Origin: Candidatus Peribacteria bacterium RIFCSPHIGHO2_01_FULL_51_35
GTDB lineage: Bacteria > Patescibacteriota > Gracilibacteria > Peribacterales > Peribacteraceae
Assembly (NCBI GenBank): GCA_001787535.1
Contig: MFXP01000004.1
Span: forward strand, 1 to 64,000
Reading direction: 5' to 3'
Length of the DNA: 64,000 bases
Positions 18,366-56,757 of the stretch are shown here, piece by piece. The notes beneath the pieces are model-generated. The model was given only the letters and a program-made list of their open reading frames with translations, was not told where the DNA came from and made no database searches. The translations under genes and the position numbers were made by a program. Positions within the stretch are counted from its first letter, which is position 1, and each line of letters starts with the position of its first letter.

Positions 18366-18566
18366 TAGAGCGAGCTGGAAGCGGACAGTTCTTTCTCCGG
18401 ATTTATTTGTTGCGAGAGAGTTTTTAGACGTAGATGTTTCCATCTTTCTCCAGCGGGTAGAACTGCGGGATTTAGGATCACGACATACTACAGAGCACCC
18501 CTCCGTGGGTGCGATGTCGATCTTTCTTTGTTTGCCGATTCCTTCCACCTTTGTCCGGCTAATGAT

Positions 18567-18781
18567 CGCATCGTACGGGTGCCATCAAATGGTATCCACT
18601 TTCTTTTGATGCAAAAGAAAGTGGAGAAAGAAAACATAGCCGCTCTGATAAATTTCCTGCGCAACAATGGCTCGCTGCGCTAAAAACGCGAACTCGTCCG
18701 CCTGAGGGCGGACTCAAACAGCGCGTTTTTTTAACGCTCCGCTCGCCAAGTTGCGCGACGGAAATTTTTCAAGGCGGCAAC
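18567..18781. repeat. Dispersed structured repeat A, copy 1
   Basis: atcgtacgggtgc..actttcttttgatgcaaaagaaagtgga..aaatttcctgcgcaacaatggctcgct..ccgctcgccaagttgcgcgacggaaattttt; homologous to 47490..47706. Confidence 0.9.
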
Positions 18782-19151: not shown

Positions 19152-19162
19152 ATGTAATTCGT

Positions 19163-19193
19163 CGTAGAGACGCGCGATTCGCGCGTCTCTACG
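19163..19193. repeat. GTAGAG-type dispersed palindrome
   Basis: CGTAGAGACGCGCGATTCGCGCGTCTCTACG. Confidence 0.9.
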
Positions 19194-19237
19194 GAAGAAC
19201 TATTCTGATTCGGTATGCAAAGAACTCTGCTCGGTTT

Positions 19238-19266
19238 GTAGAGCCGCGAGATCTCGCGTCTCTACG
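19238..19266. repeat. GTAGAG-type dispersed palindrome
   Basis: GTAGAGCCGCGAGATCTCGCGTCTCTAC, 12 nt past the 3' end of the adenosyltransferase gene. Confidence 0.85.
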
Positions 19267-19277
19267 AACGAATGGAA

Positions 19278-19826
19278 TTATGACGAATAATCAACAGCCG
19301 TATCGGCAATGCCTTTTTCATGATTCGCAGCGCGTGCAGCAATGAACAGATAATCACTCAGTCGATTGATGAAAATGCGCACAGCGGGATTGATAGTTTC
19401 CTCTCTTGCCAATGCCACGATCCAGCGTTCTGCACGGCGGCAGATGGTGCGTGCCAGGTGCAGATTCGCGGATGCGACGGATCCTCCCGGGAGAATAAAA
19501 CTTGTTTGAGGAGGCAACGCCGTTTCCAACGTCTTGATCCATTCTTCCAGTTCAAAGACATGCTCTTTTGCCATGCGATCCACCTTGGCATCCACAACAA
19601 GCGGCGTCGCGAGATCTGCGCCCACACGGAAAAGAAGATTCTGAATATGAAGCAACTGATCGGATGCTTCTTGTAAAAGCTCTTTTGATGCGAGCACCAC
19701 GCCGATGCATGCGTTCAGTTCATCGACGGTGCCATATGCATGGAGCCTCGGGGAATTTTTGGAGATTCTGCCTCCACCAAAGAGTCCTGTGGTCCCGGAG
19801 TCGCCTGTTTTGGTGACAATCGACAT
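19278..19826 (-). CDS. PduO-type cob(I)yrinic acid a,c-diamide adenosyltransferase
   Basis: MSIVTKTGDSGTTGLFGGGRISKNSPRLHAYGTVDELNACIG..RTICRRAERWIVAL..INRLSDYLFIAARAAN. Confidence 0.92.
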   Translation of the reverse strand: MSIVTKTGDSGTTGLFGGGRISKNSPRLHAYGTVDELNACIGVVLASKELLQEASDQLLHIQNLLFRVGADLATPLVVDAKVDRMAKEHVFELEEWIKTLETALPPQTSFILPGGSVASANLHLARTICRRAERWIVALAREETINPAVRIFINRLSDYLFIAARAANHEKGIADTAVDYSS

Positions 19827-19863: not shown

Positions 19864-19893
19864 TGGCTTTTTCCTAATAATAATTCCAAAACA

Positions 19894-19942
19894 GGGAGCA
19901 GGCATACCTGCCTGCGATACGCGGCCAAGTATGGCCGCTCCT
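19894..19942. repeat. Cloverleaf-like palindromic element, copy 1
   Basis: GGAGC-AGGCATACCTGCCT-GCGATACGC-GGCCAAGTATGGCC-GCTCC; homologous to 38463..38513. Confidence 0.85.
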
Positions 19943-19960
19943 CACTAAATAAGCATGTAT

Positions 19961-37256: not shown

Positions 37257-38464
37257 CAACGGACAATGTACAATGGACAACGTGTCAGTTTTCAATTGTC
37301 CATTGTCCATTTTCTCTCCACTTCTTGAATAACACGTCGCAACCTAAAGGCACAATTCTTCTGATCTCTCCTTACTGGAAAGAAGACCATCGCTGGATGG
37401 TGAGTTCTGTGAAGCTTGCGGAGCTTTGGCAAAGGATCGGATACAAGATCGTTGTTGTATGCATGAGCAAAAGTACGGGCGTGGATGTCGTGTCGGATAC
37501 ACTCACCATCCACCGTCGCAAAGATTTCTTTCTGCCCGATCCCTGGAACTACGGCATTGCGTTGGGATTTTCCGGTTATGTGCGACGGCTCGAAAAACAG
37601 ATCAAACCAGATCTCATCATCGTCAATAAACTCCTCTTCTGGACATCGCTTGTGACAGTGCCGCTCCGTCTGCGAGGCAAACGCGTGCTACTGCTGACCG
37701 ATGCCTTCGTCGGCATGACGTGGCAACCGCGTGCATTGCTTCCGAAGATCGTCATGGCGATGGGCGCATGGACGGTAGGTTGGACAATTCTTCTTGCCGC
37801 CTCGCGCGTCGTTACGTTCCACCCACAACCGCCGCAATTATTAAAACGGCTTGGCATTGCAAAGAAGACGAGTGTGATTCCGACGGGGATCGATCCAACA
37901 AACTTTGAAGAGCAGAGAGCAGAAAGCAGAGAGCAGAAAGTTTCGATCACATACATTGGGAGATTAGAATCTGTGAAAGGTGTGGACGATTATTTGGCTG
38001 CAGCAGCATCTTTACTGGCATCACATCCTGAGATGAATGTTCGAGTCGTGGGATGGTATAAAAAAAATCATCCACTTGTCGCTGCATACGGAAATCGTGT
38101 CACGTTCACGGGATTGCGACATGACATCCCTGCAGTTCTCGCGGAGACGGACATCTTCGTGCTTCCCAGTTACAGCGAGGGGCTTTCGAATGCCCTCATG
38201 GAAGCCATGGCCAGTGGTTGTGCGTGCATTGCAAGCGATGTGGGCGGCAACCGGTTCCTCATTCAGAACGGCATCTCCGGCTTGCTCTTCCCCGCAGGGG
38301 ATAGGGAAGCACTGGCAGCACACATCCGCAGACTTCTGGAGGACACGGCAAAGAGAGAATCCTTGGGGAAAGCTGCGCGAAGAAGAATTGATGAACAGTT
38401 CTCATGGAATGTGGTTTCGAGGCAGTATCAGAGCCTTTTTAAGGAGTTGGAATCTAGAAGCTGA
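37253..38464 (+). CDS. Glycosyltransferase family 4 (start uncertain; the N-terminal about 20 codons lie in a period-7 array)
   Basis: ILLISPYWKEDHRWMVSSVKLAELWQRIGYKIVVV..LPSYSEGLSNALMEAMASGCACIASDVGGNRFLIQNGISGLL. Confidence 0.92.
   Translation: MTTDNVQWTTCQFSIVHCPFSLHFLNNTSQPKGTILLISPYWKEDHRWMVSSVKLAELWQRIGYKIVVVCMSKSTGVDVVSDTLTIHRRKDFFLPDPWNYGIALGFSGYVRRLEKQIKPDLIIVNKLLFWTSLVTVPLRLRGKRVLLLTDAFVGMTWQPRALLPKIVMAMGAWTVGWTILLAASRVVTFHPQPPQLLKRLGIAKKTSVIPTGIDPTNFEEQRAESREQKVSITYIGRLESVKGVDDYLAAAASLLASHPEMNVRVVGWYKKNHPLVAAYGNRVTFTGLRHDIPAVLAETDIFVLPSYSEGLSNALMEAMASGCACIASDVGGNRFLIQNGISGLLFPAGDREALAAHIRRLLEDTAKRESLGKAARRRIDEQFSWNVVSRQYQSLFKELESRS
37255..37312. repeat. Inverted period-7 array
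   Basis: GACAACG GACAATG TACAATG GACAACG .. CAATTGT CCATTGT CCATTTT. Confidence 0.85.
37911..37940 (+). repeat. Period-7 array inside the GT4 gene
   Basis: AGCAGAG AGCAGAA AGCAGAG AGCAGAA AG. Confidence 0.85.
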
Positions 38465-38513
38465 GGAGCGGCCATACCTGGCCGCGAGTCGCGGGCAAGT
38501 ATGCCCGCTCCTT
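38463..38513. repeat. Cloverleaf-like palindromic element, copy 2
   Basis: GGAGC-GGCCATACCTGGCC-GCGAGTCGC-GGGCAAGTATGCCC-GCTCC, beginning within the stop codon of the GT4 gene. Confidence 0.9.
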
Positions 38514-38539
38514 TGTTTGATCTGCTACCATAGGAAACC

Positions 38540-47489: not shown

Positions 47490-47706
47490 ATCGTACGGGT
47501 GCAATCCAATGGGTTTCCACTTTCTTGTGGCGCACAAGAAAGTGGAGCAAAGAAAACAGTCGCTCTGAAAAATTTCCTGCACAACAATGGCTCGCTACGC
47601 TGAAAAGTGCAAAACTCGGCCTCGCTCCGCTCGGCCTCAAACATGCACTTTTCGGGTGCTCCGCTCGCCAAGGTGCGCAACGGAAATTTTTCAAGGCGAC
47701 AACCCT
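47490..47706. repeat. Dispersed structured repeat A, copy 2
   Basis: atcgtacgggtgc..actttcttgtggcgcacaagaaagtgga..aaatttcctgcacaacaatggctcgct..ccgctcgccaaggtgcgcaacggaaattttt. Confidence 0.9.
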
Positions 47707-56587: not shown

Positions 56588-56659
56588 ATGTGGATTGTAT
56601 AGAAAACTGTACAGAAGTCCAGATCAAAACTCTTGCGAGAAATCATTTGCCGTTCGTTT

Positions 56660-56688
56660 GTAGAGCCGCGCGATTCGCGCGTCTCTAC
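56660..56688. repeat. GTAGAG-type palindrome
   Basis: GTAGAGCCGCGCGATTCGCGCGTCTCTAC. Confidence 0.9.
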
Positions 56689-56716
56689 GACGACGATCAT
56701 ATTTCCATTTCGATCG

Positions 56717-56750
56717 TTTGTAGAGCCGCGACATGTCGCGGCTCTACAAA
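56717..56750. repeat. GTAGAG-type palindrome (perfect, 34 nt)
   Basis: TTTGTAGAGCCGCGACATGTCGCGGCTCTACAAA. Confidence 0.92.
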
Positions 56751-56757
56751 CCACTGT

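Follow-up and report, generated by a model that had tools for sequence, protein, structure and literature searches.

What are the two similar sequences that lie in the same orientation within the 64-kb window (the whole stretch of DNA analysed here), and how do their stems remain paired when the letters change? The original prediction saw a dispersed structured repeat, either a structured RNA or terminator family or a hairpin-copied mobile element. Re-reading the sequence at both sites confirmed the two same-orientation copies, the compensatory changes between their hp1 hairpins, including a T-A to G-C change present on both sides, and the apical stems that are different yet paired in each copy (Table 1). 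The boundaries of the copies had to be corrected to those of the conserved cores, and hp1 is now read as one helix of a predicted pseudoknot, with the minus strand as the favoured functional strand. We consider it probable that the window sites belong to a pan-bacterial, apparently undescribed family of structured elements that are mobile but non-autonomous and carry a telomerase-type triple-helix pseudoknot.

Table 1. Parts of the two copies and adjoining features, in window coordinates
Feature	Positions	Strand	Composition and basis
Copy 1, conserved core	18595..18778	-	minus strand 5'->3': long stem, then pseudoknot
Copy 1, R1 covariance-model match	18597-18634	-	28.4 bits
Copy 1, long bulged stem P2-P5	18639..18778	-	fold and compensatory changes; outer GCCGC..GCGGC; AAATTTCC/GGAAATTT; GCGCAAC/GTTGCGC; apical AAAACGCG/CGCGTTTT, bordered by GAGTT / TGTTTGAG motifs
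Copy 1, hp1 = predicted pseudoknot helix S2	18595..18625	-	TCCACTTTCTTTTG-ATG-CAAAAGAAAGTGGA; CTTTCTTTTG / CAAAAGAAAG plus TCCA/TGGA
Copy 1, loop L1	18626..18634	-	TTTTCTTTC, parallel Hoogsteen register with purine arm AAAAGAAAG
Copy 1, predicted helix S1	18609..18637	-	18609-18611 (ATG) with 18635-18637 (CAT), 3 bp; sequence and covariation in relatives
hp0, small hairpin	18577..18597	+	GGGTGCC-ATCAAAT-GGTATCC; adjoins hp1 on the outside; varies between copies
Solo half-hairpin	18543..18559	+	TTCCACCTTTGTCCGGC; 5' half of sister-family hp1 (compare L039); upstream of several copies
Copy 2, conserved core	47516..47700	-	
Copy 2, R1 covariance-model match	47518-47559	-	21.7 bits
Copy 2, hp1 = predicted helix S2	47516..47546	-	TCCACTTTCTTGTG-GCG-CACAAGAAAGTGGA; CTTTCTTGTG / CACAAGAAAG, compensatory to copy 1
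Copy 2, L1 linker	47547..47556	-	TTTTCTTTGC
Copy 2, long stem	47559..47700	-	apical stem rebuilt as GAAAAGTGCA/TGCACTTTTC

Copy 1 is situated past the 5' end of a gene for an M16 peptidase, and copy 2 is flanked by a gene for a PMT-like glycosyltransferase and an ORF without assignment, both of which end toward it. The window also holds another dispersed hairpin family, at 19159-19278 and 56652-56756, 37 kb apart (GTAGAGACGCGCGATTCGCGCGTCTCTACG and GTTTGTAGAGCCGCGA..TCGCGGCTCTACAAAC), and a 58-nt inverted repeat of the CAGGGAGCAGGCATACCTGCC type at 19887-19944 and 38462-38519, 84% complementary over a distance of 18.5 kb. The 5' part of a 16S rRNA gene occupies positions 1-491 on the minus strand and runs off the window start (the cmscan match has 491 nt for model positions 1-308); near it, at 142-874, sequences of 56 and 93 nt recur as direct repeats at a spacing of about 545 nt.

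The predicted fold and its strand

On the minus strand, the element begins with the long bulged stem, whose outer pair forms one end of the unit, and passes directly into a predicted H-type pseudoknot of the order S1-L1-S2-S1'-S2'. Folding energies of the two copies lie well below those of shuffled sequences (z -8.5 for copy 1 and -7.6 for copy 2), with none of 200 shuffles as low. Among 11 diverse elements of the Peregrinibacteria family, 29 of 51 predicted pairs carry compensatory changes, and the changes in the long stem comprise about 70 double against 8 one-sided ones. The unpaired motifs TGTTTGAG and GAGTT (minus strand) are conserved across phyla, and the apical stem between them varies freely. 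An attC-like reading of GCGCAAC..GTTGCGC was dropped on inspection, as copy 2 breaks the pattern.

Members of different phyla share a complementarity between the hp1 loop and the bases directly following the A-rich linker; the paired sequences include GGTCGCC/GGCGACC, CTTGATC/GATCAAG, GTGGCC/GGCCAC, CGGGC/GCCCG, TGTCC/GGACA and AGCCAC/GTGGCT, and there are more. The complementarity has a mean of 4.42 bp, as against 3.44 +- 0.10 after permutation, and none of 500 permutations reached it, although such counts are not true p-values because the sequences are related. In the ungapped alignment A3 (31 sequences, minus strand), double changes were found at 4 of the 6 S1 pairs and 6 of the 11 S2 pairs (10 of 17 in all). 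This amounts to 52 double-change cells, compared with 11.3 +- 2.6 in shuffles, and the signal was gone once the partner was slid by one column. These comparisons show that the predicted helices S1 and S2 covary across phyla. S1 has 4-8 bp in many relatives; in the window genome it has only 3 bp and is nearly invariant, and the pseudoknot there therefore rests on homology.

The linker mirrors the S2 purine arm (r = 0.96): arm A4GA3 occurs with linker A3GA4 27 times, A3GA4 with A4GA3 or A4GA4 10 times, and A3GA3 with A3GA3 18 times. Accordingly worded for the minus strand, L1 (UUUUCUUU) tracks the S2 purine arm (AAAAGAAA) letter for letter and in parallel, U over A and C over G. The parallel Hoogsteen match is 98.8%, against a permutation maximum of 95.8%, and falls to 62% at a one-position shift. 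As read from the letters, this register follows the rule by which a pyrimidine strand pairs in a major-groove triple helix, U.A-U and C+.G-C, and we infer that L1 would lie in the major groove of S2 as such triples. At family level, two crossing, covarying helices agree with the structural class of H-type pseudoknots with a major-groove triple, as does, from sequence only, the parallel Hoogsteen register of L1 with the purine arm.

Of 76 elements, 68 fold to a lower MFE on the minus strand, a difference that may be inflated by the A/C-rich plus-strand loops, which are G/U-rich on the minus strand. Among the non-Watson-Crick pairs of hp1, scored without strand preference, A.C outnumbers G.T by 38 to 12, and a plus-strand A.C is a minus-strand G.U. 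Over all helices the counts were 209 G.T, 279 A.C and 4396 Watson-Crick; a first reading of this all-helix test as parity at the DNA level was revised upon the A.C excess in hp1 alone. Because of the MFE difference and the hp1 A.C excess, the minus strand is favoured as the folded one. The wobble signal is weak outside hp1, so that the strand assignment is provisional; RNA is the more likely folded form, as against ssDNA, though not proven.

Copies across bacteria

BLAST searches of the window's own genome (1,196,444 bases in 18 contigs) revealed about nine full or near-full copies, together with truncated and chimeric ones. On reading, their cores are 81-96% identical to copy 1 and their flanks unrelated. 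The conserved unit of the element measures about 185-260 bp. Relatives in the same family carry elements with an identical skeleton and different stems. Of 286 Patescibacteria genomes, 31 matched R1, a covariance model of the pseudoknot; genome G018 has 20 matches and G242 has 16. Many further copies were thus found in the own genome and the Patescibacteria scan, and covariation increased, instead of being lost, when copies were added, both as the original prediction of a structured repeat would have it.

By exact pattern, Silvimonas has at least 16 copies and one Thiotrichaceae genome at least 27. A motif scan covered genome contigs (CAAAGAAA..RAACTCG..CTCAAACA). Among the matches listed, at least 68 elements have hp1 beside the motif, 66 from genome-contig loci and 2 from viral contigs; the taxa among these listed matches include Beta- and Gammaproteobacteria, Bacteroidetes, Gastranaerophilales, Desulfobacterota, Cloacimonadota, Melioribacteraceae and Campylobacteraceae. 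At 43 of the 68 loci, an open frame of at least 90 aa runs across the element.

In BLASTN, neither phages nor plasmids matched window copy 1. A betaproteobacterial copy matched only five plasmid records, all typed non-mobilizable, and an Aggregatibacter copy had no match in E. coli genomes. On viral contigs, a narrow, too-specific hp1 pattern found no match, and a looser scan returned mostly chance matches in coding DNA, with two real elements (L094 and L121) among those read. Against Rfam 15, the window and 17 loci at the gathering score, together with seven stretches searched down to E 1-5, gave nothing beyond tRNA, rRNA, a single unrelated sRNA and matches due to chance. We found no description of the element in the open-access papers searched by sequence, ORF motif and wording; an earlier description elsewhere is possible.

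A sister family, B (L039, L040, L079 and L080, in genomes G000, G031 and G013), has a purine/pyrimidine hp1 of the kind seen in the present family, A, and a different interior (GCGCACCGCGCGCC..CTCCTCCACCCGGCCC..GGCCTTCCCC..CACCCCCCGTGGCGCGCGG); the 3' end of L039 is common to family A. Solo 5' halves of the B-type hp1 (CCACCTTTGTCCGGC or close) occur in the window at 18543-18559 and upstream of L030, L033 and L037. Several family A copies have such a half 30-100 bp upstream, which looks as though B elements had been truncated within hp1.

Insertion sites and neighbouring genes

In four genomes examined by simple ORF calling, the neighbouring gene aims toward the element on the left in 24 of 34 cases and on the right in 25 of 36; convergent gene ends are preferred, with no strand preference. 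A cis-regulatory orientation was rejected; elements lie in either orientation between convergent ends. The suggested terminator role did not hold up: copy 2 is without a terminator-like site, and copy 1 stays within shuffle expectation (two found against a shuffle mean of 0.9, the single plus-strand match being the upstream hp0 hairpin). The combination that marks an intrinsic terminator, a GC-rich hairpin and T-run co-directional with genes, was not seen.

Mobility is indicated by the presence of a few to more than 27 copies per genome in unrelated flanks, and by a site that is occupied in one species but vacant in a congener. Aggregatibacter kilianii has an inverted pair of elements where the orthologous site in G374 is empty; the spacers have diverged, obscuring the exact insertion junctions. 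Four Aggregatibacter species have inverted-repeat elements between radA and lrp (named from reading translated flanks); G373 has the two in the opposite order, and in G372 one of them carries an internal deletion. S1 (GCAC/GTGC versus GCCC/GGGC) and S2 both show compensatory changes between orthologous elements at this site, which implies that after insertion the fold persists or is renewed by gene conversion; the changes may possibly have come by gene conversion from other copies instead of in-place evolution. At the radA-lrp loci (L396-L399), inverted AAGTGCGGT uptake-signal-like sequences sit inside the inverted pair, and the reversed order in G373 would fit an inversion of the entire segment. 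A Silvimonas locus, L278, has two half-elements head to head, forming one long near-perfect palindrome through hp1.

The ends of the unit vary with lineage. In G018 and G242 one falls at the outer stem and the other at the end of S2'. In the Thiotrichaceae genome (G103) at least 27 similar copies of the unit lie inside MITEs with 14-bp TIRs (ACTGATGTTACGCA). Several of these copies show target duplications of 5-6 bp, for example TAGTT, AAATA, AAGTA and TTCTA, and the genome also holds TIR-only derivatives such as L343, of about 50 bp. No autonomous copy was found between these TIRs; the longest TIR pairs enclose only host genes. Also in G103, L344 and L345 share an identical insertion of about 30-40 nt within the hp1 3' arm, and in L254 and L258 the long stem lacks its inner part, apparently through a deletion between direct repeats (..AGAATGG..AGAATGG..).

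Known systems and rival explanations

No known family passed the tests applied. In the pseudoknot of vertebrate telomerase RNA the order is likewise S1-L1-S2-S1'-S2', and the pyrimidine L1 lies over the S2 major groove in U.A-U triples. The element differs in being bacterial and dispersed, with no template or TERT partner (a reverse transcriptase, PF00078, scored above cut-off in only 3 of 16 carriers), in its longer S2 of 10-15 bp, in its little or no L3 and in its triple being inferred; the likeness is one of resemblance only. U.A-U major-groove triples also stabilise the fold of the SAM-II riboswitch and ENE triple helices, from which the element differs in topology or context, with no Rfam match and no constant downstream gene. 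OMEGA/HEARO and TnpB guide RNAs are, similarly, structured pseudoknotted RNAs of mobile elements in many phyla; the element, by contrast, is without an ORF, had no HEARO match in Rfam, and occurs in 16 carriers none of which has TnpB above cut-off.

Like REPs and REPINs with their RAYT (Y1) transposases, the elements are dispersed, intergenic, palindromic and mostly chromosomal, in some lineages without target duplication, and they might be ssDNA mobile elements of the REP/RAYT or IS200-IS605 type, whose folded strand a Y1 (HUH) transposase recognises without target duplication. This is consistent with the G018, G242 and window-family copies, in which neither a TIR nor an obvious duplication was seen, with covariation that is Watson-Crick-only with few wobbles, with the pyrimidine-rich left flank in G018, and with the ability of DNA also to form parallel triplexes. 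Y1_Tnp matches were found in 12 of the 16 carriers, some of which are draft genomes, and G000 alone has eight such matches. However, Y1_Tnp was unmatched in Silvimonas (G099), with its at least 16 copies, in Rheinheimera (G098) and in G001 and G013; no GTAG-type REP signature was seen; the A.C/G.T asymmetry of hp1 suggests a strand with wobble pairing; and the element, at 185-260 bp with pseudoknot and long stem, differs from REPs in build. We therefore regard an ssDNA element as unlikely. As obligatory mobilisers, Y1_Tnp, TnpB and reverse transcriptase are all unsupported, none being universal among the 16 carriers. Ordinary MITEs, moved by DDE transposases via their TIRs with the structured core as palindromic passenger DNA, would account for the TIRs, the TIR-only derivative and the duplications of the Thiotrichaceae, and the inverted pairs of Aggregatibacter, Silvimonas and others resemble composite inverted repeats. 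The elements do share with bacterial MITEs of the ERIC, RUP and Correia type a non-coding, multicopy, intergenic character, but TIRs and duplications were seen in several Thiotrichaceae copies and not in the window family, G018 or G242, the core is constant across phyla though the outer ends vary, and its pseudoknot and triple register call for a selective explanation; we doubt this account strongly.

It also seems improbable that the copies are a resident regulatory RNA, a 3'-end stabiliser or terminator multiplied by gene duplication and not selfish. The preference for gene 3' ends would suit such an RNA, a triple-helix pseudoknot would plausibly withstand 3' exonucleases, and the orthologous radA-lrp pairs were retained in four species with compensatory changes. 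Against it, there is no strand bias to either neighbour beyond convergence, no neighbouring gene is shared among loci, single genomes hold at least 20 near-identical copies, and the terminator is absent in copy 2 and not above chance in copy 1. Least of all do we credit a process free of selection, in which template-switch correction of quasi-palindromes during replication perfects the stems. Such templated repair, the hairpin copying of the original prediction, may give stem covariation, and the long-stem changes are nearly all from Watson-Crick to Watson-Crick. Hairpin copying is nevertheless insufficient, because the L1/purine-arm register is parallel (mirror), a relation that polymerase templating cannot write, and the unpaired motifs TGTTTGAG and GAGTT are retained across phyla; this rival was already disfavoured.

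The two options of the original prediction are better joined than opposed, a structured element and a mobile one being combined in a structure-bearing unit dispersed in many copies. In the reading we prefer, that of a mobile structured family, the unit would be non-autonomous, its folded module, as transcript or ssDNA, would be recognised by a trans-acting activity for copying or insertion, and insertions would survive between convergent gene ends, where they are least harmful. A more specific version, which we offer only tentatively, is that a transcript with the telomerase-type triple-helix pseudoknot is itself the mobilised unit of a pan-bacterial, RNA-based selfish element; a host or other factor would insert it with neither TIRs nor target duplication, and other elements would have captured it repeatedly.

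Absent from Rfam and conserved from Patescibacteria to Proteobacteria and Bacteroidetes, with up to dozens of copies per genome, the element would be an overlooked widespread repeat, and it probably explains many spurious small ORFs. It provides a testable system for the spread of non-autonomous structured elements without a known enzyme, and it would give RNA triple helices a bacterial counterpart.
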